Shown piece by piece: positions 17,159-58,488 of a stretch of DNA of 64,000 nucleotides (position 1 is its first letter; each line of letters opens with the position of its first letter). A program made the position numbers and the translations under genes. Origin of the DNA: Sphingobacteriaceae bacterium (GTDB lineage Bacteria; Bacteroidota; Bacteroidia; B-17B0; Aurantibacillaceae); NCBI GenBank assembly GCA_002319075.1, contig NVQB01000001.1, positions 4,340,001 to 4,404,000 on the forward strand, in the 5' to 3' direction. The notes below the pieces were generated by a model. That model was not told where the DNA came from, searched no databases, and saw only the letters and a program-made list of their open reading frames with translations.

Positions 17159-18283
17159 TTAGGCGCTGATAAGATCGGCTGGTGAAGTTGAAATGAAATT
17201 GAATGATCTGTTAATAATTGAGGCGTAGTGCTCTCCGGTTTCTTTCATTTCCTCATCATCTTCTTCAAAGTGCCAGTAAAATTTTACAGAACATCCTTTC
17301 GTTTCGAGCTCCAGAGACTTTTGCATAAGTTGAAGGATAATTTTTGAGGCGTAGGTATTGAAGAAGTTAAGGTTAAAATGGACTGAGAAACTGTCGGGTG
17401 CTGTATCTTTTAATTTCTCAAGCCAGTAAAACACAGGTTTGTAAAAATTAAGCGGATGATTGGTCATAGAAATTCCTTCCATTTCAATACGATTCTGAAG
17501 ACTATTTAAAATAACTTTCGGACTCCGCTCTGTTGCTGGAATTTCAATACGCGGAAGGCTGCTTATGTTTACAATTATTTTTGATGAAAGGTCGTTAAGA
17601 GTCAGGTTATACTCTCCAAGTAAATTCATTACCGCACCTGCGTACGGCAGAACATCGCCTTCCTTTATTCCGTAATTACAATCGTGGTCGCAAAGGGATA
17701 TGATTTTAAAAAGCATGTTGTTAACCGATTTTATGTTTCGGACCCAGATCTTAAAACGGAAAGCAGGATTGTAGATAACTCTAAAGCCATCTATTACTTT
17801 AATATAATCAGGTGGTTCATGTGTAAGTAGTAACGAGTCGTGGTAGTCTTCTTCCTTTGGCTCATCAGAAAAAAATAATTCTTTGATCCTTCTTGTTTGA
17901 TTTTGATTGTAAGAGAATATTTCTGCAATACAAAATAGAGCCCGGTCAAGATGTGTGTTGTTTTCTTGCTTATTGTATTTAATGAGTTTGAGAACAAGTG
18001 TTATAAAGATAAGTTTCTGATGCGGATTCATGTTCAGGCGAACCTTATCCGCTAGCCGGTTTATCTCGATAATAAGTTTGGTGGGATGCTGATATTTTTC
18101 CAGCAGGAAATAATGATCGGCAAGATTAAAAATAGACTTTAAGATAGCATGGTATTCAGACTCGTTAACCAATGAGCTGAGAGAAGATCTCAATTCATTG
18201 TAGTTTATCCTTTTGGGTTTGGCAATCAGTTTTTGGCAATGCAAAAACAAACTGACATTATTTTTTTGAGTTTCTCTATTCAT
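17159..18283 (-). CDS. TerB-like helical domain fused to a SiaC (DUF1987) domain
   Basis: Translation from the ATG at 18283 gives 374 residues; an upstream TTG at 18328 would add 15, but the ATG is preferred. Residues about 15-150 are helical and resemble a TerB-type bundle (KLIFITLVLKLIKYNKQENN, IKELFFSDEP). A beta-rich segment follows (FKIWVRNIKSVNNMLFK). The last 130 residues form a SiaC domain: NFYKPVFYWLEKLK, FNLNFFNTYASKIILQLM, FYWHFEEDDEEMKETGEHY. The Thr of FNT (about 310) corresponds to the likely phospho-acceptor of SiaC. The same N-terminal arrangement appears in the proteins at 52309-53382 and 53379-56396. SiaC proteins are phospho-switched regulators controlled by a SiaB kinase and a SiaA phosphatase. 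The gene is probably co-transcribed with 18387-19598. Confidence 0.75.
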   Translation of the reverse strand: MNRETQKNNVSLFLHCQKLIAKPKRINYNELRSSLSSLVNESEYHAILKSIFNLADHYFLLEKYQHPTKLIIEINRLADKVRLNMNPHQKLIFITLVLKLIKYNKQENNTHLDRALFCIAEIFSYNQNQTRRIKELFFSDEPKEEDYHDSLLLTHEPPDYIKVIDGFRVIYNPAFRFKIWVRNIKSVNNMLFKIISLCDHDCNYGIKEGDVLPYAGAVMNLLGEYNLTLNDLSSKIIVNISSLPRIEIPATERSPKVILNSLQNRIEMEGISMTNHPLNFYKPVFYWLEKLKDTAPDSFSVHFNLNFFNTYASKIILQLMQKSLELETKGCSVKFYWHFEEDDEEMKETGEHYASIINRSFNFISTSPADLISA

Positions 18284-18386
18284 TATCAGGGGTAGGTTTG
18301 GTAAGTGGTACTTGCTGTTTTTTTTCAAAAGAATATTTTTTTAACTGCTTATTGCTTTTAGTTCTTACTTACCAGTACTCAGTTTA

Positions 18387-45272: not shown

Positions 45273-48200
45273 TTACTTAGGGCAGTCTGTTGGATCTTCG
45301 ATTAACCTGGAGAAGACTAAAAAAGTGGCGTTCATTTTTTCTATCTCAAAATTATCGGCAAATTCCAAAAGCATTTTACTGTACTCTTCCAGATCACTGT
45401 TTCTCGTTTTAATGGCGTAACCCAGCAGAAGTTGACCAAATTTAATAATGTCATCTATGCTCATTAATCTGGCGGCCTCCTTCCAGTAATCAAGAAAATT
45501 TTGTCTTAAGAGTTCTCTTGCTTCAAACGATAATTCAGGAAAAGTTTTATCACGTTGGGGTTTAGTGATTTTCTTTTTTTTATGGGTGAGTTTATGCTCC
45601 AGAAAATTACCCAGCACCTGCACCAGAGCTTTTTTACTTACCGGTTTTCTTAAATAGTCGTTACAAAATTCTCTGATCTCTAATTCACTTTGTTTTAATG
45701 CTGAAGCTGTAAGGGCAATGATCGGGATTTTATCGTAGCGCGGTTTTCCACGAATAATCCTGGTGGCAGTGTATCCATCCATAATTGGCATCATCATGTC
45801 CATTAAAATAAGGTCGGGAAGGCTTGATTTTAAAATATCCAGCGCATCCTGTCCGTTTTCCGCAATGGTGATTTCCAGGTTCAGAGGCTCTAAAAATCCT
45901 TTAATAATTTCTCTGTTGGATGGAACGTCTTCTACCAGTAAAATTTTTTGTCCCTCAAAAGTGTAGTCAGGAGATTCAACGATCGCTTCATCATCTTCTT
46001 CTCTTACCACTGCTATGTCAATGTCGTGAAGGGTAACAGAAAAACTAGCGCCTTTGCCGGCTACGCTTTCCAGGTGAATGGTACCATTCATCATATCTAC
46101 CAGGCGTTTTGTGATCGTTAACCCAAGGCCTGTGCCACCGTATTTACGATTGCTTTGTCCATCTTGTTGTTTAAAGGATTCAAAAATAAGGGTGTGCTGA
46201 TTTTGTGGAATGCCTATGCCGGTGTCGCTTACCTTGAATATCAGCGAGATTTTGCTATCCTCATGGCTTGCTATCTCAGATATCGAAAGTGTTACAGAAC
46301 CCGTGTGTGTGAACTTAAATGCATTGCCAAGAAGGTTGAAGAGTACCTGGCGAATACGTGTTTCATCAATAAGTATGTTTTTCGGAAGTCCCTTTTCAAA
46401 ATCTATAATAAACTCAATTCCCTTCTCCTCAGCCTTTTGAGCGAAAAGTTGCCGGAACTCATTTGCCAGTTTTTCTACATTTACAGATACATTCTGAATA
46501 TTCATCTGCCCTGCCTCAATCTTAGAAAGATCCAGAATGTCATCGATCAAAGAAAGCAGGTTTTTACCTCCTGAAAGAATACCGTTTATATAGCTTTCGT
46601 ATTTTGGCCCTTTGGTGTTCCCTTTTAAGAGTTCAGAAAATCCTAACACCGCATTCATAGGTGTGCGTATTTCGTGACTCATGTTCGCAAGGAATTCGGT
46701 TTTTGCTTTGTTAGCTCTCTCGGCTTCTTCTTTAGCTTCCAGTATTTTTAACTGGGCCGATTTCATTTCGTCAATGCCGCCCAGGTATCCGTAGAAAATG
46801 ATATTGTCGTTGTTATCACGTTCGGGAGTTGCTTGTAAAAGTCTCCAGGAATAGCTGTTTGTGAGGTCTGATTTTAGCCTTATTTCCATGTTAATGGAAC
46901 TCATTTGCTTTGTAGACGTGTCGAGGATATTCAGTAAAGCATTCCTGTCTTCCGGGTGAATGATATCGAAAACCTGGCTCAAATGAGGCATGGTACTGTA
47001 ATAATCCTTTCCGGGAGGTTTCAAAAGATCACTCAGGAAAATAAATTCGGTTTCTCCTTCGTTTGAGATTTTTAATTGAAAAACGGTTCCGGGAATTTGG
47101 CGGATGATCTTTTTGATAAAATCATGCGAACGTTTTGCTTCTTCTTCAGCCTTTAAAATCTTTCGCTCGTAATTTTTTTGGAAATCAATATTGGCAACAT
47201 ACCCGTACCATACCACTGAGTTGTCTTTCTGCAACTCCGGCGTGGCTTGTATACCCTGCCAGAGTGGTAGTTCATGATCAGGATGATTTACCCTGAATTC
47301 AACATTTAGATCCTCTAAGGTTTGTGCCGATTTCTGAAAGCCCTGGATTAATTTAAGTGTGTCGTCGGGATGTACATTTCTCCAGGCATCTGAAGCGTCT
47401 TCTAAAAGTCCGTCGGTATCTATGCCCAGCAGCGGTTTAAACTTTTGACTCATGTACATGAAATTTGAACTCCCATCCGATTTCATGCGGAATTGAAAAA
47501 TTAGGCCGGGTACCTGGTAGATTAATTTTTCATAAAGTCTGTTGTTTTTCTCAAGTTGTTTTTCGGCAATTTTCCGGGCGGTTATATCAGAGGTTACTCC
47601 GTTTACCCGCGAGCGATTGTCTTTGTCGTCTTTAATCAACCATACCCTAACAAAAAAGTAAATGTTCTTACCATCCTTAACTGAGCTTTGTTCGAATTCG
47701 CAATAGCCTTTTTCAAACAGCTCTGTTCTTTTCAGATATCTAAGTTGAACGTCTTCGGGCTGATATAAATTTTGCCAGAGAACTTTTTCAGCGTTAAATT
47801 CTTTAAGTGTGTATCCGAATAATTTTTCCCCCGCAGGATTAATATAAAGCATTTCACCTTGCGATAAACTAATAGACCAGATAGCGTCTTCAATAGAGGT
47901 GAGCACATTATCAAGCCTGTTTTTAGTGAGTTTTAATTCAAACTCGTTATGTTTTTTTTCAGTAATATCATTCCTGATAAATAAATATTCTTCAATTTTT
48001 CCAACAGTGTTTTTAATCGGAATCACAAAGGTATCGGTCCAGAAATAAGAACCGTTTTTTGCCTTGTTTTTTATTTCTCCGCGCCACACAAGGCCACTGG
48101 ATACTTGAGCATGCCGACGCTCCCAAAAAGCAGGCGAATGATAGTGCGCGTTAATTAATAAATGTGATTTTCCAATTAATTCGGCGGCAGAAAAACCACT

Positions 48201-49607
48201 GATGTTTTCAAAATTTTGATTTACGAAAGTAATAATTTCGTTTTCATCTGTCTTGGAAATAATGCTGGCCTCATTTAAAGCAAACTGAAATTGAGCTAAT
48301 TGGTTACTTGTTGTTTTTTGTTCGTCTGCTAAAGTTTTGAGCTCGGTAATGTCTTGCGTTGTGCCATACAGTCCGGTAATATTATTGTTTTCAAATTTTG
48401 GTTTAGAAAAGTGTTTAAGCCATTTTTTGTTTCCATCAAATGTGGTTTGGTGGGCCTCAAAGGAAAAACTTTGTCCCAATTGTTTTGCTTTGAGGATAGA
48501 ATTGATCAGTATTTTTTGATCATCCCACTCAAAGGTTGAAAATATTTTATCAAAAGAAGTTATGGTCCCTTTTTTTAGCCCATAGATATCAGAAAGGGCT
48601 TCACTCGACACTATTGTGTTCGACTCAAAATCGAGCTCCCATCCGCCAAACTTAGCCAGGTGACCGGCTTGTTCAAAAATAAGTTTTTGTTTATTCAGCT
48701 TGTCAAGCAGTCGCTCATTTTCTGTTACATCGGTCGAAATGATGTACACAGATTCTACCGATTTGTTACTGAGCAAAGGAATAAACTGCATAGAATACCG
48801 TGTTTTGGCGCTATTCGGACCCCAGGCAGTCATTTTACCGCGAACTATTTTTTTTGTTTCGAAGGCTTCTTTAAGCCACGAGTCAAAAAGTTGCTTGTAT
48901 TTTTGCGGCACAAACGTCAGGATGTTTTTTCCAAGAAGATCAGAAGCTTTGTTAAGCTTACTTTTATTTATAAAAAGTATCTCTCTCTCTTTATTAACTA
49001 TTTGCAGAAGATCAGGAGAGTTCTCAGATATAACCTTAAGCTTTAGCTTCTCTTCCGAAAGTTCTCGTTCCTTTTCGATGCGCAACATCAAACGCCCTAT
49101 ATGTTTTGCGAAATATTCGATCTCTTCATTGTACTCAATCTGCTGATCTCTTTTTAAAACAAGTACCAGGTCGCCAACCACTTTTTCTTTATCAAATAAA
49201 CCGAGCCTGTAGAGTTTTCCAATGTTGAATGTTTTTTTAAGAACGTCGCCAATTATATTTTTGAAAAAGCTATTGGCATCCTCCAGTTCTCCGAGGTATA
49301 CCAATGAATGGGATTGCATGCCATTAGAGAGCTGCTCATCCAATGGCCACTCTTTGCCAATCAGCTTTTGCTTAAATAGACCGAAGATTTTTTGAATATT
49401 TTTCTGAATACCAGATACCGCTACCGTTTTTGTGGTTTGTCCTCCAGGCGTGAGCAAATTTAAGACCACGTAAGATGCCTCCGATAGATGAAGCATATCA
49501 TCACAGATGCTTTCTACCGATATTTCATCGAACGATAGTTCCAGATACTTCGACGAAAGCTCAAACAAAAGCTTTTGCTTTTCAATTAAGTTGTGTAAAG
49601 GGCTCAT
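45273..49607 (-). CDS. Large multi-PAS hybrid histidine kinase
   Basis: The 1444-residue cytoplasmic sensor has an N-terminal GAF-like region, then about six PAS domains up to about residue 970 (for example LKVISENSPDLLQIVNKERE, ITFVNQNFENISGFSAAELI, SNFMYMSQKFKPLLGI). After the conserved linker AQLKILEAKEEAERANKAK come HisKA (FLANMSHEIRTPMNAVLGFS), HATPase (KYGGTGLGLTITKRLVDMMN), a receiver (DLILMDMMMPIMDGYTA) and a helical tail. It heads a four-gene operon of sensors on the minus strand, with a TACATTTG box about 60 bp upstream. The ligand is unknown. Confidence 0.92.
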   Translation of the reverse strand: MSPLHNLIEKQKLLFELSSKYLELSFDEISVESICDDMLHLSEASYVVLNLLTPGGQTTKTVAVSGIQKNIQKIFGLFKQKLIGKEWPLDEQLSNGMQSHSLVYLGELEDANSFFKNIIGDVLKKTFNIGKLYRLGLFDKEKVVGDLVLVLKRDQQIEYNEEIEYFAKHIGRLMLRIEKERELSEEKLKLKVISENSPDLLQIVNKEREILFINKSKLNKASDLLGKNILTFVPQKYKQLFDSWLKEAFETKKIVRGKMTAWGPNSAKTRYSMQFIPLLSNKSVESVYIISTDVTENERLLDKLNKQKLIFEQAGHLAKFGGWELDFESNTIVSSEALSDIYGLKKGTITSFDKIFSTFEWDDQKILINSILKAKQLGQSFSFEAHQTTFDGNKKWLKHFSKPKFENNNITGLYGTTQDITELKTLADEQKTTSNQLAQFQFALNEASIISKTDENEIITFVNQNFENISGFSAAELIGKSHLLINAHYHSPAFWERRHAQVSSGLVWRGEIKNKAKNGSYFWTDTFVIPIKNTVGKIEEYLFIRNDITEKKHNEFELKLTKNRLDNVLTSIEDAIWSISLSQGEMLYINPAGEKLFGYTLKEFNAEKVLWQNLYQPEDVQLRYLKRTELFEKGYCEFEQSSVKDGKNIYFFVRVWLIKDDKDNRSRVNGVTSDITARKIAEKQLEKNNRLYEKLIYQVPGLIFQFRMKSDGSSNFMYMSQKFKPLLGIDTDGLLEDASDAWRNVHPDDTLKLIQGFQKSAQTLEDLNVEFRVNHPDHELPLWQGIQATPELQKDNSVVWYGYVANIDFQKNYERKILKAEEEAKRSHDFIKKIIRQIPGTVFQLKISNEGETEFIFLSDLLKPPGKDYYSTMPHLSQVFDIIHPEDRNALLNILDTSTKQMSSINMEIRLKSDLTNSYSWRLLQATPERDNNDNIIFYGYLGGIDEMKSAQLKILEAKEEAERANKAKTEFLANMSHEIRTPMNAVLGFSELLKGNTKGPKYESYINGILSGGKNLLSLIDDILDLSKIEAGQMNIQNVSVNVEKLANEFRQLFAQKAEEKGIEFIIDFEKGLPKNILIDETRIRQVLFNLLGNAFKFTHTGSVTLSISEIASHEDSKISLIFKVSDTGIGIPQNQHTLIFESFKQQDGQSNRKYGGTGLGLTITKRLVDMMNGTIHLESVAGKGASFSVTLHDIDIAVVREEDDEAIVESPDYTFEGQKILLVEDVPSNREIIKGFLEPLNLEITIAENGQDALDILKSSLPDLILMDMMMPIMDGYTATRIIRGKPRYDKIPIIALTASALKQSELEIREFCNDYLRKPVSKKALVQVLGNFLEHKLTHKKKKITKPQRDKTFPELSFEARELLRQNFLDYWKEAARLMSIDDIIKFGQLLLGYAIKTRNSDLEEYSKMLLEFADNFEIEKMNATFLVFSRLIEDPTDCPK

Positions 49608-49796: not shown

Positions 49797-50783
49797 ATGG
49801 AAAAAGAAATACAGATAGTGCCCACGGAATCCATTCAAATGCTGCAAAAGGAAAATGAAAACCTAAAAACAGAATTGAGCGGACTAAAGTTATATTTCAC
49901 AGAACTCGAAGAAACAAATAATCATCTTGTTGCTGCCACATGGCGCGAACGGGAGATGAAAAAGAAGCTTTCTGAAACACTCGACGAACTAAACAATACC
50001 AGGCAAATTGTTGAAAGTCAAAATAAACGTATTACTGAAAGTATTAATTATTCTCGTAAGATTCAGCTGGCAATCAATCCAACAGAGCACGATCTTAAAT
50101 CTTACAATCCGGATAGTTTTATTCTGTATCTCCCAAAAGACGTTATCAGCGGCGACTTCCCCTGGCTGTATGAAACGGGAGATTATCTGTATCTGGCGGC
50201 TGTAGACTGCACTGGTCATGGTGTTCCGGGAGCAATGATGTCGATGATTGGCAACTTATTATTAAACGATATTGTAAACGACGGTGAAATGCTTATGCCC
50301 TCGGTTATCTTAAGACGATTACACGAGGCAGTTGTAAAAACACTGAAACAGGATTCGTCAGACGGTAACTCCAACGACGGTATGGATATTGGCCTCTGCT
50401 GCATTAATAAAAAGAAAGCTGAAGTTATTTTTAGCGGAGCACACCGCCCCCTTTTCTTTTTGCAGGATGGCAAAGTAGAAATAATCAGCGGTGACAAATT
50501 TCCTATAGGGGGCATGCATTACAAAGGACTTAACAAATTTACAGATCATGTGCTCCCTTATAAAAAGGGCGATAGTATGTTTTTGTTCACCGATGGATTG
50601 CCCGACCAGACAGGAGGCCCTGAAAAAAGAAAATTAATGACCCGTAATTTGAAACAGTTCATGGAAGAAAATGCTCACCTCGAAATGCAGTCATTCAAAG
50701 AAACACTCTACACTTATCTCGAAGCGTGGAAGGGCACGAATAAACAGGTAGACGACATTTTAATTTTAGGCCTTAATTTTTAA
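49797..50783 (+). CDS. PP2C-type phosphatase (SiaA/RsbU-like)
   Basis: The 328-residue protein has an N-terminal coiled coil (about 10-85) and no receiver, PAS or membrane segment, unlike Pseudomonas SiaA, which has a membrane HAMP sensor. The C-terminal PP2C domain has SGDFPWLYE, VDCTGHGVPGAMMSMIGNLL, GMDIGLCCINKK and FTDGLPDQTGGP, keeping the metal Asp residues. It is followed within 3 bp by a SiaB-type kinase, so it probably dephosphorylates SiaC-type partners (51926, 52309, 17159). A coiled coil may couple it to an array or kinase. Confidence 0.9.
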   Translation: MEKEIQIVPTESIQMLQKENENLKTELSGLKLYFTELEETNNHLVAATWREREMKKKLSETLDELNNTRQIVESQNKRITESINYSRKIQLAINPTEHDLKSYNPDSFILYLPKDVISGDFPWLYETGDYLYLAAVDCTGHGVPGAMMSMIGNLLLNDIVNDGEMLMPSVILRRLHEAVVKTLKQDSSDGNSNDGMDIGLCCINKKKAEVIFSGAHRPLFFLQDGKVEIISGDKFPIGGMHYKGLNKFTDHVLPYKKGDSMFLFTDGLPDQTGGPEKRKLMTRNLKQFMEENAHLEMQSFKETLYTYLEAWKGTNKQVDDILILGLNF

Positions 50784-50785
50784 TT

Positions 50786-51346
50786 ATGAAAATAGATTTA
50801 ACAAAAAAAATATATGATAAAATGGTAGCCCACCAATTTGTCATGTCAATCATGGGAAGTTTTAATCAGGGTTTGCTGCTGTCGCTCCTGAATATTACCG
50901 ATAAAAAACTAACAAGCCTCGAAATTGATACCACAATTAAGAAAAAGATTTTTCACTTTATGATTGAGTGCGCGCAAAATCTGTCGCGCATCGAACAAAA
51001 CGACCAGTTTACCGGAGATAATATTTTTCTCATTGGAAAAAATAATGATCAGTATACGGTTCATCTCGGCTGCGCCATGAAAAAGTCAGAAACAGATAAT
51101 ATTCAAAAACTACTGGATATAGTAAATAGCCTGGAAACGGAAGAGGTAAAAACAAAATTTTACAGTGAATTAAGTACCAAAGAACTTGCCAACCAAAACC
51201 CTTTACTGATGAGCCTTCTGGACATCTCTAAAAAAACAAAAGAGAAAATAAATTACGAGTTGATTCGCATTGACGATGAAAACACTTTTTTATCTTTTAA
51301 AACAACTATTTCCAATTTAAAACTTACAGATGGAATCTACAATTAA
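50786..51346 (+). CDS. SiaB-family kinase-like protein lacking the glycine-rich lid
   Basis: The 186-residue cytoplasmic protein shares with the next gene the fold FNQGLLLSLLNITDKKL, an N-box-like FHFMIECAQNLSRIE and a YTVHLGCAMKKSETDNIQK segment. The following protein has GGAGLGFIDMVRKSG at the ATP lid; this one has NQNPLLMSLLDISKKTK at the equivalent place, without the glycines. It may be an inactive paralog that forms a heterodimer with the active SiaB. It overlaps the next gene by 17 bp. SiaB phosphorylates SiaC in Pseudomonas. Confidence 0.8.
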   Translation: MKIDLTKKIYDKMVAHQFVMSIMGSFNQGLLLSLLNITDKKLTSLEIDTTIKKKIFHFMIECAQNLSRIEQNDQFTGDNIFLIGKNNDQYTVHLGCAMKKSETDNIQKLLDIVNSLETEEVKTKFYSELSTKELANQNPLLMSLLDISKKTKEKINYELIRIDDENTFLSFKTTISNLKLTDGIYN

Positions 51347-51872
51347 TATCTACGACATTTATAAGACCATGTCGGATAACAAGATTATCCTTATTTACCA
51401 GGGAATTTTTGACCAGGTAATGATAAAGTCTGTAATCTCTATGACAGAGAAAAAATTAATTCAGGAAAATATCGAAGAAGGTTTGCGCCGCAAACTTTTT
51501 AACGTCATGGTAGAAGGTTTGCAAAATATATGCAAACATCAGCTGGTAACAAATGAGCATGTTCAAAATCCTTTTTTAATGATAGGCAAGGAAGAGATGG
51601 CATACAATGTGGTTACCGGAAATTTTATCAAGAATGATAAAATAGCCATAGTGCAAAAGAAAATTGATTTCATCAATTCTTTAAATAAAGACGAGTTAAA
51701 AGAACATTACAAAACGGCTCGTTTAAACAGTGTAATCAGCGAGGTTGGTGGCGCCGGACTCGGATTTATCGACATGGTCAGAAAATCGGGAAATCCTTTG
51801 GATTATAAATTCTATGACTCTGATAATGACTTTTCTTTCTTTATTCTTCACAGTAAAATCAGCAGTAACTAA
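51330..51872 (+). CDS. SiaB-family protein kinase
   Basis: The 180-residue protein has the SiaB/DUF6272 layout: FDQVMIKSVISMTEKKL, an N-box-like VMVEGLQNICKH (compare GHKL N boxes), YNVVTGNFIKNDK and a Gly-rich lid VGGAGLGFIDMV at about residue 138. It ends in a beta-rich DNDFSFFILHSK. SiaB-type GHKL kinases phosphorylate a Thr of SiaC, reversed by the PP2C phosphatase. Order phosphatase-kinase-kinase-SiaC matches the siaABC arrangement, with a duplicated kinase. Confidence 0.88.
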   Translation: MESTINIYDIYKTMSDNKIILIYQGIFDQVMIKSVISMTEKKLIQENIEEGLRRKLFNVMVEGLQNICKHQLVTNEHVQNPFLMIGKEEMAYNVVTGNFIKNDKIAIVQKKIDFINSLNKDELKEHYKTARLNSVISEVGGAGLGFIDMVRKSGNPLDYKFYDSDNDFSFFILHSKISSN

Positions 51873-51925
51873 CATAAACCACAAGCAATTCTATTTACCA
51901 ATACTTTACAAACAAATAATTCCCT

Positions 51926-52303
51926 ATGCAAACGCTCAACATCTCAGCAACAGAAGACACACCAGAAATTACGTTTAACGGTGAGGCAAATGAATTCCTG
52001 ATCTCAGGACGTTCTCTGCCAGAAGACGTAACTACATTTTACAAGCCGGTTTTTGAATGGCTTGAAGTGTTTTCAGACACCGACACGCCAACTACAACTT
52101 TTAAATTCAAACTCGAATATTTCAATACAGCTTCTTCTAAAATTATCCTCGATATCTTAATGAAACTGGAAGATATGATGGAAGCAAAACAATCTAAACT
52201 TAAAATAGAATGGTATTATTTTGAGTCAGACGACGATATGTTAGAGGCTGGCGAAGAATACAAAGAGCTGGTAGAAATTCCCTTCCATTTAATTTCCTGT
52301 TAA
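51926..52303 (+). CDS. SiaC-family regulatory phosphoprotein (DUF1987)
   Basis: The 125-residue protein is a stand-alone SiaC domain: ITFNGEANEFLISGRSLPED, FYKPVFEWLEVF, FKLEYFNTASSKIILDILMK and WYYFESDDDMLEAGEEY. Thr68 in FNT aligns with the Thr that SiaB phosphorylates in Pseudomonas SiaC, from established knowledge. In Pseudomonas unphosphorylated SiaC binds the diguanylate cyclase SiaD and stimulates it. No GGDEF protein is in this window, so the target must be different or encoded elsewhere. Confidence 0.92.
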   Translation: MQTLNISATEDTPEITFNGEANEFLISGRSLPEDVTTFYKPVFEWLEVFSDTDTPTTTFKFKLEYFNTASSKIILDILMKLEDMMEAKQSKLKIEWYYFESDDDMLEAGEEYKELVEIPFHLISC

Positions 52304-52308
52304 AAAAA

Positions 52309-53382
52309 ATGAGAATTCAATCACAGGTTAACCTCTCCGGGTATATTACGGAACTTTTGCGCGCGGGCAAAAAGAAGTCCGACAAGGATTTACTTGCTCT
52401 TGGGAAAACCTTTACCTATAATTCAGAGATAGCAAAACTAAAATCTTTGTTTGCCAGCTTAAGACCCTGGCCAAAAAATGCTATTCCCCTGGAATTTGAT
52501 GTAACCGACCCTGTGGCTGCATTCTACATCTTCGTACTGTTTTTTCATAAATATTTTAATTCCTATTCAAAAAAAAGAGTGCGCGAATCGGAAAATAAAA
52601 TAAGTAAGCTGGCAGAGCTGTTAGCAATTAGTGATGAGGATAAACAGCAGCTCACTTCTTTTTTCCTTAACGAAGAGCCTTATACTGACAAAATTAAAGC
52701 GGTTTATTTTACGGCTCAAAAAAGAGGTGGATTAAATGTTCATGTGGGAGCTCACATTATGCATGCAGCAAACAGAAACAATGAAATTGTTTACCTGAAG
52801 TATTTTGAAAAATACGGCGTGTTCCTTTCTAAAGTTTTTATTAAAGAAAATAACCCTTATCATTTTATAGAAGCAGTAAGCGTTAAAGAAATAGACATTG
52901 TTACGTCAGGAAACTATTTAATGAACGATTTTGGTTACCATACCTTTGACGAAATTGTGGAAGCAGTATTAAGTCACAGGCCTTTTCAATATTACGAACT
53001 GGCTGCTACCAGCAATACGCCTAAAATAGTGCTCGACCCCGAAAACGGGAAAGTTATTATTTCCGGCTCCTCATCCCCTTTTTCGCCCACAAATTTTTTT
53101 ACACCGATTCTTGAATGGCTCGACGGTTATGCCTCTATGGGGAAAAAGCCACTTCAGATTTTTATCATGCTCGACTATTTTAATACTTACACTTCAAAAT
53201 TCCTGGTACGACTATGCAGGCAATGCGATACCATGGCTAAAGACGCTAAAGAGGTGAACATTTACTGGTATTTCGATCCGGAAGATACCGACATGCGCGA
53301 GTTTGGCGAACATCTCGCGGGCATTTATAAAAAGGGTTTTTCAAATTGTTTAATAAGCGACGGAATAGAAGAATTGGTATGA
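52309..53382 (+). CDS. TerB-like domain fused to SiaC domain
   Basis: The 357-residue protein starts 6 bp after SiaC and overlaps the ABC gene start by 4 bp (ATGA at 53379-53382). Residues about 50-150 are helical (FYIFVLFFHKYFNSYSKKRV, QQLTSFFLNEEPYT), residues about 150-225 are beta-rich (EIVYLKYFEKYGVFLSKVFI) and residues about 230-350 form a SiaC domain (FFTPILEWLDGYAS, MLDYFNTYTSKFLVRL, WYFDPEDTDMREFGEHL) with Thr293 at the phospho position. The same architecture occurs at 17159-18283, and the N-terminal part resembles that of the ABC protein that follows. It may connect SiaC switching to the transporter. Confidence 0.8.
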   Translation: MRIQSQVNLSGYITELLRAGKKKSDKDLLALGKTFTYNSEIAKLKSLFASLRPWPKNAIPLEFDVTDPVAAFYIFVLFFHKYFNSYSKKRVRESENKISKLAELLAISDEDKQQLTSFFLNEEPYTDKIKAVYFTAQKRGGLNVHVGAHIMHAANRNNEIVYLKYFEKYGVFLSKVFIKENNPYHFIEAVSVKEIDIVTSGNYLMNDFGYHTFDEIVEAVLSHRPFQYYELAATSNTPKIVLDPENGKVIISGSSSPFSPTNFFTPILEWLDGYASMGKKPLQIFIMLDYFNTYTSKFLVRLCRQCDTMAKDAKEVNIYWYFDPEDTDMREFGEHLAGIYKKGFSNCLISDGIEELV

Positions 53383-56300
53383 GCGAAGAAATTTTAAAGG
53401 CATTAATGCAGCTTTTTGCCATTATTGCTAAACAGGATGGTGTATTGATCGAAAATCACGAAAAGTACGTTTTCGATTTTTTATCTTCACAGTTGAGTGT
53501 AGATCGTGTGCAGGAGTATCTCGATCTTTACAATGAGTTTTTAAATGAAGCAAAACCAGAACCGGTTAACGCTGAAGTGAAAGACAAAGCGCGAACGTCG
53601 ATGAAAGATTCGGTAAGAACGCTGGCTATTTGCAAAAAAATTAATAAGACACTTGCACAAAAACAAAAAACAATTGTATTAATAAGGTTGTTAGAATTCT
53701 TTAAAAACGATTCTCAAAAGTCTATCAACCGTATTCAGATCGTAGAAACTGTTGCCGATGTTTTTAAAATTGAAAAACAGGAGTTCCTGGAAATAAAAAA
53801 CTTTTTATTTGAAGGACAGGAAGAAACAAGTGAAAATGAAATTGTAATTGGAGAAGAAAGTCTCAAGGAGACCTGTAACTGTAAGCACTATCTGCCATTT
53901 CAGCACTACCAGGGTAATTGTAAGTTTATTTATTTAAAAAACATAAACATTATTCTTTTAAAATACCATGGAAGTGTAGAACTGTTTTTAAACGGAGTAG
54001 TTATAAAACCTGAGAACATTTATTTGTTTCCGCACGGCAGCACTTTACGCTTACCGCAAACAACAATTTATTATTCCAACATCATTTCTAAGTTTACCGA
54101 AGATCAGGCCGGAGAGTCTTTTTCTTTTGAAGCACACATTACTGAGCATAAATTTCCTAATGGAAAAAAGGCACTGAATGAATTAAAAATTGCTGAAACT
54201 TCGGGTAATTTAGTAGGAATAATGGGAGCAAGCGGCTCTGGTAAAACTACTTTACTCACACTTCTTTCGGGACAGGAAAAGCCTTCTAACGGCCTGGTGA
54301 AGATTAATGACCTTGATCTGAACAAAAATAGTGAAGAGCTAAAAGGTGCCATTGGTTATGTGCCACAGGACGATCTTTTAATTGAAGATCTTACTGTATT
54401 TGAAAATTTATATTACAATGCAAAACTTTGTTTTAAAGGATTGAGTGAAAATGAAATTACTCAGAAAATCTCCAAAACATTAGTATCCCTGGGACTCGCC
54501 GAAATAGCCACCATTAAGGTGGGAAGCCCTCTGAATAAGAAAATCAGCGGCGGTCAAAGGAAACGTCTCAATATTGCGCTTGAATTGATTCGTGAGCCGC
54601 ACATTCTGTTTTTAGATGAACCAACATCCGGTCTTTCCTCCCGGGATTCTGAAAATGTAATGGATCTTTTGAAAGAGTTGACTTTCAGAGGGAAATTAAT
54701 TTTTGTGGTTATTCATCAACCTTCGTCCGATATTTTTAAAATGTTCGATAAGATACTGATTCTCGACACAGGCGGGTATCCTTCCTATTACGGAAACCCC
54801 ATTGAAGGAGTAATGTATTTTAAAAAAATTACCAACCAGATAAATAGTGAAGTAGGGGAGTGTTATGCTTGTGGAAGTGTGAACCCCGAAACAATTTTTA
54901 ACCTGGTGGAATTAAAAGAAATTGATGAGTACGGAAACTACACGGACAAAAGAAAAATTCAGCCTGTAAAGTTTTATGAATACTACAAAGAGCGGTTTTT
55001 TGAAAAGATAAATGTAAAAACCGTAATGGGCAAACTACAAAGCACCTTTAGCGTGCCGAATAGATTTGTACAAACGAAGTACTTTTTTCTGAGAGATTTT
55101 TTCTCTAAACTATCCAACAAACAATATATTTTGATTAACCTGGTAGAAGTGCCTGTGTTAGTGCTCTTTCTGAGTTTGATCATCCGCTACGTAGATAAAA
55201 CAAAAGAAGAAAATTACAGTTATTTCCACAATACAAATATTCCTTCGTATTTTTTTATGTCCATCATTGTGGCACTACTAGTTGGTTTAACGATAAGCGC
55301 AGAGGAAATTTTTAAAGATCAGAAGATTTTAAAGCGTGAAAAATTTCTTCATTTGAGCAGACTATCTTATTTGTCTTCCAAGGTTATTTTACTTTTTGCC
55401 ATCTCAGCTATTCAATCTGTTTTATTTGTGGCAATAGGCAACCTTGTTCTGCAAATTCATTCGGGTTACCTGAGTTTTTTCTTCATGCTGTTCTCGGTGT
55501 TTTGCTTTTCAAATATTCTGGGACTTATTCTTTCTTCTACTTTTAATAGTCCTGTTACCATTTACATCATCATTCCTTTAATCATCATTCCACAATTAAT
55601 TTTGGGTGGCGCAATGTTCAGCTATTCTAAACTCAGCGCACTATTTGGCGGCGGCTATAAGGTTCCCTTGGTGGCTAACATGATGGTTTCCCGTTGGGCT
55701 TACGAAGGCCTGGCTGTAGATCTTTATACCACTAATCCTTATAATAAAGACAGGTTTATTTATTCAAAAATAGAATCCAAGTTTAATTACAAGTTGGTTT
55801 ATCTTATTCCAAAACTAGAAGAGATCGTAAAAGCAAGAGATCCTCAATTGAAAGATGAGTTCATTGCTAAAACGGATCTTTTAAGAACGGAACTTGAAAA
55901 GGATGCCGTAGAATCTAAAAAACTCGGTTTTAAAGACGAGCTTCCGGATTTTAAAAATTCCGAATCTGTTTTAGCCTATCTGCAGAATTTAAACACCTTT
56001 TATGGAGAAAAATTTAATCATGCTTCGAGATTAAAAGAAGAGTTTATAGCAAAACAGGTAAAGATGCTCGGAAGTGAAGCCAGGTGCGAAGAACAGAAGC
56101 TGAATTATTTTAGCAATAGCCTCGACGAGATTATGACAGGAAGTCTTGTAAAAGAAAAAATCGTTGTGGAAGATAACGCCCTTGTTCAGATTGTAGATCC
56201 CGTTTTTCAGGATCCCGACAATAAAAATACCTTATTCAGCACGCGAACTCATTTTCTTTCGGCAAGTAAATATCTTTTTAACAAGCTTATACCCACTTAT

Positions 56301-56396
56301 TATTTTAATCTTTTAGTTATCTGGTTAATGAATGGTGTCTTATTCCTTTTCCTTTATCTGGATGTGTTTAAGAGAGTTTTTACTAAGATGAAGTAA
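53379..56396 (+). CDS. ABCG-type exporter with N-terminal TerB-like module
   Basis: The ATG at 53379 overlaps the preceding stop and gives 1005 residues. Residues 1-150 are TerB-like helices (LMQLFAIIAKQDGVLIENHE, QKTIVLIRLLEFFKN), followed by a beta-rich segment (CKFIYLKNINIILLKYHGSV). The ATPase has Walker A GASGSGKTT at about 283, Q loop GYVPQDD, signature ISGGQRKRL at about 389 and Walker B ILFLDEPTSG at about 409. Six transmembrane helices follow from about 583 (for example LINLVEVPVLVLFLSLIIRYV, cut here to LVLFLSLIIRYV) with a soluble insertion of about 220 residues before the last helix. It fits an ABCG half-transporter; the substrate is unknown. The operon position makes it a candidate output of the Sia switch. 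Confidence 0.88.
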   Translation: MSEEILKALMQLFAIIAKQDGVLIENHEKYVFDFLSSQLSVDRVQEYLDLYNEFLNEAKPEPVNAEVKDKARTSMKDSVRTLAICKKINKTLAQKQKTIVLIRLLEFFKNDSQKSINRIQIVETVADVFKIEKQEFLEIKNFLFEGQEETSENEIVIGEESLKETCNCKHYLPFQHYQGNCKFIYLKNINIILLKYHGSVELFLNGVVIKPENIYLFPHGSTLRLPQTTIYYSNIISKFTEDQAGESFSFEAHITEHKFPNGKKALNELKIAETSGNLVGIMGASGSGKTTLLTLLSGQEKPSNGLVKINDLDLNKNSEELKGAIGYVPQDDLLIEDLTVFENLYYNAKLCFKGLSENEITQKISKTLVSLGLAEIATIKVGSPLNKKISGGQRKRLNIALELIREPHILFLDEPTSGLSSRDSENVMDLLKELTFRGKLIFVVIHQPSSDIFKMFDKILILDTGGYPSYYGNPIEGVMYFKKITNQINSEVGECYACGSVNPETIFNLVELKEIDEYGNYTDKRKIQPVKFYEYYKERFFEKINVKTVMGKLQSTFSVPNRFVQTKYFFLRDFFSKLSNKQYILINLVEVPVLVLFLSLIIRYVDKTKEENYSYFHNTNIPSYFFMSIIVALLVGLTISAEEIFKDQKILKREKFLHLSRLSYLSSKVILLFAISAIQSVLFVAIGNLVLQIHSGYLSFFFMLFSVFCFSNILGLILSSTFNSPVTIYIIIPLIIIPQLILGGAMFSYSKLSALFGGGYKVPLVANMMVSRWAYEGLAVDLYTTNPYNKDRFIYSKIESKFNYKLVYLIPKLEEIVKARDPQLKDEFIAKTDLLRTELEKDAVESKKLGFKDELPDFKNSESVLAYLQNLNTFYGEKFNHASRLKEEFIAKQVKMLGSEARCEEQKLNYFSNSLDEIMTGSLVKEKIVVEDNALVQIVDPVFQDPDNKNTLFSTRTHFLSASKYLFNKLIPTYYFNLLVIWLMNGVLFLFLYLDVFKRVFTKMK

Positions 56397-56575: not shown

Positions 56576-57481
56576 ATGAAAAAAATAACAATGATCGCTT
56601 TATCCGCTCTAATCCTTATGAGCTGCGGCAATTCCAAAAACTCAGAGTTGGAAGCGGAATTAATGAATGATTCCGCCGACAGTTCACAAAGTATTTCTAT
56701 TTCAAGAGATGTTTTGGATGAAATGATGCAAACCCTGCCATCGCCTATAGAGACGGCAAATCTGATCACTCAGTCTAAAAGTAGTTTTAAAAAAGAGCTT
56801 TTAATTCCTGCTCAGAATGCAGTAAACTTTCCGAATAAATATACACAGGCTCTTGCCCTTGGTGGTTACGGCGTGGATCTTGGATACATTAACCTTAACA
56901 ATAAGATGCTTTATGTAGTTGAATACCTCGAAAGTGTAAACACCATTTCCAAGGAATTAAAAGTAAACCAATTCCTAGACTTCTCAACCTTAAACAACCT
57001 GGCAAAAAACAGGGACAATGTAGATTCTTTGATCCGTATTTCAACAGAAAACTTTAACCACATCGATGAATACCTTCGCAGCAAAGAACGTGGCGACCTG
57101 AGCGTACTTATTCTTATTGGCTCCTGGGTAGAAGGTCTTCACATGTTTAATAACATCGCAAAAGAAAATCCTTCAGAAGAAATCACTAAACGCATAGGCG
57201 AGCAAAAAATTATCATAAACAATATTTACGCTATTCTCGATAAAATAGATAAGATCGCTTACTACAGAGAATTAAAAGAGAAGTTAAAAGGATTGAAAGA
57301 TGTTTATGCAAACGTAAAAGTCTCTTACGTATACAAAGAACCTGTAACCAAGGAAGTAAACGGTGAGTTGGTGATCGAAGACGGTTCTGAATCGGTAGTG
57401 GAAGTAACGGCTAAAGATCTGGAAGCGATTGACAGAGAAATTACCAAACTAAGAAATGCGATTTTTATAGTTTACAAATAA
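56576..57481 (+). CDS. Helical lipoprotein downstream of the ABC gene
   Basis: The ATG at 56576 is chosen over one at 56495 because it begins a lipoprotein signal (MKKITMIALSALILMSC, Cys at about 17). The mature protein of about 285 residues is mostly helical with heptad-like patterns (LDEMMQTLPSPIETANLITQ, YVVEYLESVNTISKELKVNQ, RIGEQKIIINNIYAILDKID). No catalytic motif is evident. Its position after the ABCG exporter suggests a periplasmic or outer-membrane partner. It is 180 bp from the ABC stop and could have its own weak promoter. Confidence 0.8.
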   Translation: MKKITMIALSALILMSCGNSKNSELEAELMNDSADSSQSISISRDVLDEMMQTLPSPIETANLITQSKSSFKKELLIPAQNAVNFPNKYTQALALGGYGVDLGYINLNNKMLYVVEYLESVNTISKELKVNQFLDFSTLNNLAKNRDNVDSLIRISTENFNHIDEYLRSKERGDLSVLILIGSWVEGLHMFNNIAKENPSEEITKRIGEQKIIINNIYAILDKIDKIAYYRELKEKLKGLKDVYANVKVSYVYKEPVTKEVNGELVIEDGSESVVEVTAKDLEAIDREITKLRNAIFIVYK

Positions 57482-57498: not shown

Positions 57499-57978
57499 AT
57501 GAAGAAAGTACAGGAAAAAATCAAGCTGCTGGTTCTGGCGCTAAGTTTAATTTTTGTGTGTTCTGGTTTTTTTACTTTTAAGAAAGGAGATTGCAGCACT
57601 TCAAAGATGACCGCAACTGCCGTAGATCAGTTGAAAAAATTTACTATGATCCAGGAATTTCCTTTTTACATGAAGAAAAAAAAGAAAGACGCGGAGACCG
57701 AGTATAAGAAACAAATTATAACATTGAACAGGGGAGTGCGTTACAAGTTTTTTGCCGTAAGAAATGCAGAATATGAAGGCCAGCCAATACTCTGCATTTA
57801 CAACAACGAGAAGCAGGAGTTTCTCTTAGGATCAACCTATAATGTAACATTTAAAAAATTTTATAATGAATTGGAGTTTGAATGTAAAACTACCGGCAAC
57901 TACTGTCTTTCGTTCAGTTTTCTGGATGGTATGGAAGGTTGTGCGCTAGGTGTTTTTTCTTCCCTTGTTAAAGAATAA
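57499..57978 (+). CDS. Small secreted protein, paralog of the 5207-5650 protein
   Basis: The 159-residue protein has a signal peptide (KLLVLALSLIFVCSGFFTFK) and a mature beta-rich domain with the pattern LNRGVRYKFFAVRNAEY, FKKFYNELEFECKTTGNYCL and GCALGVFSSL. It aligns by eye with the protein at 5207-5650, including the Cys positions near the C-terminus. It lies 17 bp after the lipoprotein gene and appears co-transcribed. The family is not recognised. Confidence 0.75.
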   Translation: MKKVQEKIKLLVLALSLIFVCSGFFTFKKGDCSTSKMTATAVDQLKKFTMIQEFPFYMKKKKKDAETEYKKQIITLNRGVRYKFFAVRNAEYEGQPILCIYNNEKQEFLLGSTYNVTFKKFYNELEFECKTTGNYCLSFSFLDGMEGCALGVFSSLVKE

Positions 57979-57990
57979 TACAGATTTAAT

Positions 57991-58488
57991 ATGACGCGCT
58001 TAATTTTAATCATTCTGTTATGCACTACGCATATCGCCTTTTCTCAAAATCCAGTCCTCAATATTTACCTGGATACAAAAGAAGTAAACAAAACAAAAGT
58101 TCCTGTTTATGCTTTTGTGAAATCGAATGGCAAATATTATTCTATTTTAAAAACGCAGGAAAGTAAAATAAATTTACCTGAACATGTTCAACTACATGAA
58201 ATAGAAGCCCTGACATTCATTATTAAAAATGATACAATCACTTTTACGGTAGCAAAGCTACTTGAAGATTTAAAAACACACCCTGAGAAGAACGCCGTTG
58301 ATGAATTGTACTACATGTTTAAGGAAATTAAAAAATGGGATCTGCGGATCGATAATTTTAAATACGCCAGCAAAGAACATCATTTAATAGCGAGTAAGGT
58401 TGAGAAAGAGAAAACTGCGGCAGGGAAAGATTATAAAGTATATAGCCTGCTTACCACTTCGTTTAAATATTATATTGTAAAAGTATAG
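57991..58488 (+). CDS. Secreted hypothetical protein
   Basis: The 165-residue protein has a signal peptide (LIILIILLCTTHIAFSQ-type; MTRLILIILLCTTHIAFSQ) and a mature part with alternating beta and helical stretches (VPVYAFVKSNGKYYSILKTQ, DELYYMFKEIKKWDLRIDNF). No family is recognised. It follows the previous gene by 12 bp and ends the plus-strand run. Its convergent neighbour is the antiporter. Confidence 0.65.
   Translation: MTRLILIILLCTTHIAFSQNPVLNIYLDTKEVNKTKVPVYAFVKSNGKYYSILKTQESKINLPEHVQLHEIEALTFIIKNDTITFTVAKLLEDLKTHPEKNAVDELYYMFKEIKKWDLRIDNFKYASKEHHLIASKVEKEKTAAGKDYKVYSLLTTSFKYYIVKV

Follow-up and report, generated by a model that had tools for sequence, protein, structure and literature searches.

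A SiaABC-type partner switch in Bacteroidota with an ABCG-type exporter as its probable effector in place of SiaD

We analysed a 64,000-nucleotide stretch of a Sphingobacteriaceae bacterium genome (assembly GCA_002319075.1, contig NVQB01000001.1, positions 4,340,001 to 4,404,000, forward strand; hereafter the window), in which the feature at 49797-56396 joins a SiaABC-type set of phosphatase, kinase and phosphoprotein genes to a transporter gene. The six genes listed in a preliminary description of this DNA were found in the order and at the coordinates given there, all on the + strand: a PP2C/SpoIIE phosphatase of the SiaA type, whose sequence reads as a coiled coil at the N-terminus (49797..50783), a SiaB-family protein without the G.GLG motif (50786..51346), a SiaB-family kinase (51330..51872), the SiaC phosphoprotein (51926..52303), a 357-amino-acid (aa) protein with an N-terminal module and a SiaC domain at residues 232-340 (52309..53382), and a transporter (53379..56396) in which a putative TerB plus FHA-like module (about residues 1-245) precedes a nucleotide-binding domain (NBD) and an ABC-2 membrane domain. 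Two details of that description had to be revised. The transporter, placed at TTG 53346, probably starts at ATG 53379, because the Met-Ser there is invariant in 73 aligned rows, and the unit reaches 58488 rather than ending at 56396. From phosphatase to transporter the genes are separated by 2, -17, 53, 5 and -4 bases, an operon-like spacing. After a gap of 179 bases come a lipoprotein gene (LIP, 56576..57481, +; lipobox read from sequence) and then, after 17 and 12 bases, genes for the small exported proteins SM1 (57499..57978, +) and SM2 (57991..58488, +), whose signal peptides were read from sequence; all three have homologues in a second operon of the same genome, L017. Family searches gave no convincing match for these three proteins that would hint at a substrate. 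In a promoter and terminator scan the counts were close to the shuffled mean (34 against 28.3, and 7 against 6.6), and the scan was not used.

The phosphatase matches Pfam SpoIIE (7.8e-20), and at E<=0.001 a PDB search retrieves a single relative for it, the serine phosphatase 6k4e (4.7e-31). At 328 aa it is short for the 658-position NCBIfam SiaA equivalog model, of which only positions 384-656 were matched, with 165.3 bits against a cut-off of 700; no match to a membrane sensor was found in it by family searches. Both SiaB-family proteins match DUF6272, the first at 3.2e-24 and the second at 7.5e-38. The second also passes the NCBIfam SiaB_fam_kinase model (141.7 bits, cut-off 85), has 6kko_A as its best PDB match (1.2e-9) and contains both the N-box (E..QN) and G.GLG, although the window SiaB misses the SiaB equivalog cut-off of 225 (72.1 bits). 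The first stays under the SiaB-family cut-off of 85, with 79.2 bits. Like its counterparts in L017 (7057-7590) and in the close relative L078 (11903-12463), it keeps the N-box and lacks G.GLG, and each of the three adjoins a SiaB that carries G.GLG; from these motifs, the three look like pseudokinases. G.GLG is present in 73 of the 83 SiaB open reading frames counted (ORFs; a fused double SiaB is excluded), and the other 10 lie in 9 loci, each with another SiaB.

SiaC itself is clearly recognised by Pfam (3.9e-40), has 6kko, 6kkp and 7e6g as its PDB relatives, 6kko foremost, and falls below the cut-off of the NCBIfam SiaC equivalog (80.1 bits, cut-off 150). Residues Y65, N67 and T68 occupy the same positions as in Pseudomonas aeruginosa SiaC, and all three, including the phosphoacceptor T68, are invariant in 75/75 transporter-linked SiaC sequences. 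The SiaC domain of the fusion protein (1.6e-27) also keeps the phosphoacceptor threonine. Position 69 is Ala in 74 of the 75 transporter-linked sequences, whereas P. aeruginosa SiaC and three GGDEF-linked sequences have Ser there; position 107 is Ala in 73 of the 75. Both positions face SiaD in the solved complex, and both are among the three that differ most between transporter-linked SiaC and 30 other SiaC sequences.

The transporter matches Pfam ABC_tran (3.2e-30) and ABC2_membrane (5.5e-18), with the NBD (residues 280-428) preceding the membrane domain (576-767) in one chain, numbered from the TTG start. TIGR00955 scores 228.8 bits, below its cut-off of 736, and ABCG2 aligns over 277-748. 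This NBD-first order, together with the ABCG-like sequence, identifies the protein at sequence level as an ABCG-type half-transporter. In the N-terminal module, TerB lies below the Pfam cut-off in the window protein (0.18 for the whole protein, 0.0099 for residues 1-270), whereas 71 of the 73 sequences in the alignment give a TerB match at E<=0.1, the best at 9.6e-12. An AlphaFold model of residues 1-270, built from 73 rows, has a predicted local distance difference test score (pLDDT) of 84.4 and a predicted template-modelling score of 0.79, and consists of seven helices followed by a beta domain. Its TerB part resembles PG1108 (VIA Z 8.3 over 120 residues) and the tellurite-resistance protein 2ou3 (Z 7.2 over 132). 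For residues of about 150-245, FHA chains make up most of the Foldseek and VIA rows shown, with a Foldseek probability of 1.00, a best E of 9e-3, VIA Z 7.8 over 80 residues against the MEK1 FHA domain, and root-mean-square deviations of 3.1-4.0 over 80-90 aligned residues; no Foldseek match at E<=0.001 and no Pfam FHA match was found for this part, and the Z values are in the middling range of the tool. We therefore read the N-terminus of the model as TerB plus an FHA-like domain, and give the FHA fold moderate weight. FHA domains bind phosphothreonine through conserved Arg, Ser and Thr-Asn residues, the Thr-Asn being held in the loop that corresponds to the one before LNG here. In column frequencies over the 73 rows, with the register set by eye, no Arg is conserved, Thr-Asn before LNG is absent, S188 is 96% conserved, and the loop preceding the invariant LNG is variable and mostly acidic. 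When 74 Sia-linked modules were compared with 26 unlinked ones, 10 undecided rows being excluded, differences appeared at helices 75-91 and 116-128; since the linked rows form one clade, phylogeny alone could explain this contrast. In one locus (L096, 8891-9622) a stand-alone gene for the module lies directly before the full transporter gene.

Genome contigs were searched with a profile of 12 transporter N-termini, 11 of them Sia-linked. At least 532 relatives were matched, and the best 80 loci were annotated with the window and L017 proteins. In 73 of these best 80, the gene immediately preceding the transporter, in the same orientation, encodes SiaC (in L119 and L163 as a fusion), so that the transporter takes the slot after siaC. 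The records concerned are titled Cytophagales, Bacteroidales, Flavobacteriia and others, although some titles seem untrustworthy (L156 and L157, nearly identical, bear different names). The survey of Bacteroidota proposed in the preliminary description thus finds the pairing widespread and not a local rearrangement, and the recurrence of the same gene order across records argues that the operon is not a chance arrangement. Typically, the genes run in the order CheR, CheB, a small protein, a long PP2C, SiaB, SiaC, transporter, lipoprotein and a small protein. Where more than 8.5 kb upstream was available (n=57), SiaC was present in 53 loci, SiaB in 53, PP2C in 52, and CheR and CheB together in 48, and 44 of the 52 phosphatases reach at least 800 aa. 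Downstream, in the 72 loci with room, LIP was matched in 59 and SM1 in 34, and L078 also has an SM2 match. One long PP2C, that of L037, was tested and gave weak Cache, HAMP, GAF and PAS matches; two of the upstream small proteins were tested, and both matched GAF, though only one passed the cut-off. The presence of CheR and CheB next to a PP2C with HAMP suggests that the sensor may adapt by methylation.

A tree of the transporter cores (97 rows, N-module removed, quick method, midpoint root for drawing) places all 77 Sia-linked rows within one set of 85 (SH-aLRT 99), which fits one old coupling. The set also holds 7 undecided rows and L085. The remaining 12 unlinked rows are placed outside it, and 8 changes of the label "linked" are still required on this tree. 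In L085 the SiaB and SiaC genes are about 5 kb away on the opposite strand. There, as in L087-L092, a protein of about 1,500 aa directly before the transporter separates it from opposite-strand SiaB/SiaC genes; no Pfam match was found for the L085 copy, the one tested.

The absence of SiaD, first noted within 64 kb, extends to the genome. No GGDEF match was found in the whole genome by a search that was positive in 8 of 14 control genomes. This genome-wide search for GGDEF proteins and SiaD had been set beforehand as the one that could overturn the interpretation, and no SiaD homologue turned up. Among 87 genomes of the order, the window's included, EAL was matched in none and GGDEF in one, as a 118-aa frame with an internal stop. 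GGDEF was likewise absent from 45 genomes of retrieved transporter loci, which were chosen mostly for long contigs, are of unstated completeness and include a few again from the order (for example L099 and L163); SiaC was recognised directly upstream of the transporter in 44 of them, L130 being the exception. Among SiaC-bearing genomes of the phylum, GGDEF was found in 0 of 5 with an N-module transporter as against 16 of 17 without (Fisher p 0.0002), and the transporter of G045, one of these five, groups with the unlinked rows of the tree; because this contrast also separates the window's class from other groups, it is not independent evidence. An output through cyclic di-GMP (c-di-GMP) was rejected, GGDEF and EAL matches being absent from the genome.

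The module of the transporter also occurs attached to SiaC. A search with the transporter N-module matched the ORF preceding the transporter in G426 (3.8e-12) and G402 (7.7e-9), and both are fusions of the module with SiaC. In a profile comparison, six fusion N-termini matched the module with a probability of 98.1% (E 1.2e-13), a similarity that is strong only with L082, L163 and L119 included. The module is clear in the counterparts L082, L083 and L163 and weak in the fusion of the window operon. With an extended profile the window fusion N-terminus reaches 0.005 (best shuffle 0.32); it is not among the best eight matches of a profile built from the other fusions, and a reverse search from it retrieves one module, from L142, with 1.6e-5 and that of the window transporter with 0.0014. 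The conserved helix 75-91 is seemingly missing from it, as judged from the alignment and a poor model. Elsewhere in the window lies an orphan fusion of 389 aa (17159..18328, - strand), with an ABC-N profile match at its N-terminus (2.6e-7) and a SiaC domain (2.8e-27), and with neither SiaB nor a transporter adjacent; it could act in trans. Taken together, these matches indicate that the transporter module recombines with SiaC, clearly in relatives and in the orphan fusion, weakly in the window operon fusion.

The slot after siaC is exchangeable across the phylum. Of 395 phylum genomes, 22 gave a SiaC match, the window genome among them, and 20 neighbourhoods were examined (in two, L191 and L199, SiaC was not seen in the annotation). 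In L187-L189, from other classes, PP2C, SiaB, SiaC and GGDEF genes form a true siaABCD, and L192 is alike in broken frames. Over residues 75-275, the neighbouring GGDEF protein in L187 aligns with chain A of 7e6g, which is the GGDEF component in the complex of SiaC with SiaD; some other GGDEF chains give higher scores. Other candidate effectors are a class III cyclase directly after siaC (L205, 8794-9861) and AAA+ proteins, directly after it in L197 (4682-7618) and behind a short gene in L195 (3896-7702) and L201 (8087-11866). Further neighbours may be unrelated: a histidine kinase (L190), a glycosidase (L200), a methyltransferase (L193) and a second PP2C (L198, L203).

Within the window's own genome, the second operon L017 (C1:5328000-5346000) has the identical nine-gene order. 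Identity with the window is 67% for the transporter, 71% for SiaC, 65% for SiaB, 64% for the phosphatase, 49% for the first SiaB, 34% for the SiaC fusion, 65.8% for the lipoprotein, 62.9% for SM1 and 37.8% for SM2. L017 directly follows a same-strand chemosensory series of an MCP signalling domain, CheW, a CheY-like protein (a label from reading), CheB, CheA, a protein without a Pfam match and CheR. In the window, a hybrid sensor histidine kinase with PAS repeats, kinase and receiver (45273..49607, - strand; NCBIfam hybrid-kinase and PAS matches) lies divergently, 189 bases upstream of the phosphatase gene; a divergent ORF with a CheY-like match flanks the operon likewise in the close relatives L078 and L079, and the kinase is a candidate for the input. 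A third transporter (L036) shares the N-module and has a related lipoprotein (31% identical, 1.2e-39), and no Sia match was found nearby; transporter plus lipoprotein may therefore be the basic unit and Sia its controller. The genome holds 8 SiaC and 7 SiaB-family domains in all. One further locus (L016, 7519-12606) consists of a propeller-sensor PP2C, SiaB and SiaC, with no transporter match found in it. Another (L018, 7519-8392) has two tandem SiaC genes behind a LytTR response regulator, one with Ser replacing the phosphoacceptor Thr, and SiaB and PP2C matches were not found within its 16 kb.

In P. aeruginosa, SiaB and SiaA balance the phosphorylation of SiaC at T68 (PMC7647112), and SiaC binds the helical stalk of SiaD, a binding that T68 phosphorylation prevents (PMC8457831). 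From synteny, motif conservation and domain recombination, we consider it probable that the locus encodes a SiaABC partner switch that acts on an ABCG-type exporter as its effector, in place of the diguanylate cyclase SiaD. Since the switch stands beside an exporter in genomes without a detected SiaD enzyme family, it probably controls export and not signal production; the earlier suggestion of a possible output by export, and not by c-di-GMP, is supported by the empty GGDEF searches and by the transporter in the siaC slot. In such a system SiaB would phosphorylate SiaC on T68, and a signal from a sensor or a chemosensory system would drive the PP2C phosphatase to remove the phosphate. By analogy with SiaD, it is most likely dephosphorylated SiaC that would bind the cytosolic TerB/FHA-like module and change the ATPase activity or the assembly of the transporter, so that export of an envelope component would follow the signal. 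A SiaC with a fused copy of the module may act as a competitor of the transporter or as a bridge to it. A fuller version, which we put forward tentatively, is that dephosphorylated SiaC docks on the module and gates the ATPase, that a chemosensory-type input sets the PP2C, and that the soluble module-SiaC fusion acts as a decoy or bridge tuning the threshold. The whole would be an old route from chemosensing to export, with interchangeable effectors, in Bacteroidota lineages without c-di-GMP enzymes.

Several observations weigh against this interpretation. That SiaC physically controls the transporter is something we infer from sequence. Taken together, the SiaD-facing positions of SiaC do not diverge significantly more than its other positions (p=0.076, linked against the 30 others). 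The SiaD stalk motif gripped by SiaC, which was built from only 4 sequences, does not rise above the shuffled null in the transporter module: one of 73 modules exceeds the 95th percentile of shuffles, and the stretches with the highest average scores fall within residues 68-101, a region surrounding the conserved helix 75-91. SiaC would hence have to bind in a mode different from that used on SiaD. The query was biased towards Sia-linked N-termini, so 73/80 and the other locus counts are not prevalences, and the N-module, present in 78 of 87 genomes of the order, is rare in an even phylum sample, with 7 of 395 genomes, one of them (G276) marginal and without an N-module transporter seen in its annotation. 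Three fusions of the window's own lineage reach only 6.7% against the module in the profile comparison, the window fusion N-terminus scores 0.069 with a transporter-only profile, about equal to the top value among 600 shuffles (0.068), and the quality of its structure model (pLDDT 52.7) is too low for use. SiaC is also present without a nearby transporter, for instance in L016 and L018.

Could SiaC instead serve an unlinked target, such as a transcription factor or another SiaC-bearing system, with the transporter merely co-expressed? The number of SiaC and SiaB-family domains in the genome makes cross-talk possible, and L016 and L018 offer SiaC without a transporter, but adjacency in 73 of 80 loci from varied record groups, and the recombination of the transporter module with SiaC, make this explanation rather unlikely. 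A different use of the same parts would be that the FHA-like domain reads T68-phosphorylated SiaC, so that the phospho-form docks as phospho-Rv2623 does on FHA I of Rv1747. The fold matches of residues about 150-245, dominated by FHA chains, the threonine nature of the SiaC phosphoacceptor (PMC7647112) and the known FHA-ABC precedent (PMC5549992) favour it; yet the FHA-like stretch has neither a conserved Arg nor a constant pre-LNG loop, as seen in the by-eye register, and T68 is located on a helix of folded SiaC (PMC8457831). We hold this docking of phospho-SiaC to be unlikely.

Alternatively, a non-GGDEF enzyme might produce a nucleotide second messenger through which the switch still acts, with the transporter as a downstream or parallel gene. 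The class III cyclase right after siaC in L205 shows that such an enzyme can stand there; the operon proteins, however, gave no cyclase family match, and GGDEF and EAL had no match in the genome, a search that did not extend to class III cyclases. We regard this route as highly improbable. An exporter controlled by the switch remains our preferred interpretation.

SiaABC has so far been known as a route to c-di-GMP and biofilm. A phospho-switch that keeps its phosphoacceptor, with no GGDEF found and an exporter adjoining, gives SiaC the appearance of a general adaptor that serves neighbouring effectors: the switch is known, and the effector is new. DUF1987 proteins have been proposed in general terms to modulate adjacent proteins (PMC8457831); the pairing described here is a concrete, widespread and testable case of that idea and joins a CheB/CheR-type input to transport. 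No published treatment of the pairing of a Sia switch with a transporter was found in the open-access literature, as judged by titles and abstract openings.

In summary, the window operon shares with P. aeruginosa SiaABCD the PP2C phosphatase, the SiaB kinase, the T68 context of SiaC and an effector gene after siaC (PMC7647112, PMC8457831). It differs in that the effector is an ABCG transporter here and a GGDEF cyclase there, and in that a SiaB-family protein, predicted to be a pseudokinase, and a SiaC fusion have been added. HsbR-HsbA-HsbD and BgrUVW-BgrR are likewise partner switches with an effector other than a sigma factor, but their effectors are diguanylate cyclases (PMC7647112). In Mycobacterium tuberculosis Rv1747, as here, a cytosolic FHA-type module precedes an ABC exporter, and the control by Ser/Thr phosphorylation known there would have its counterpart in our system (PMC5549992, PMC3908365). 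Unlike Rv1747, which works with the serine/threonine kinase PknF and the universal stress protein Rv2623, the window transporter is paired with a partner switch, and its N-terminus combines a putative TerB domain with an FHA-like domain in which phospho-binding residues are not evident.

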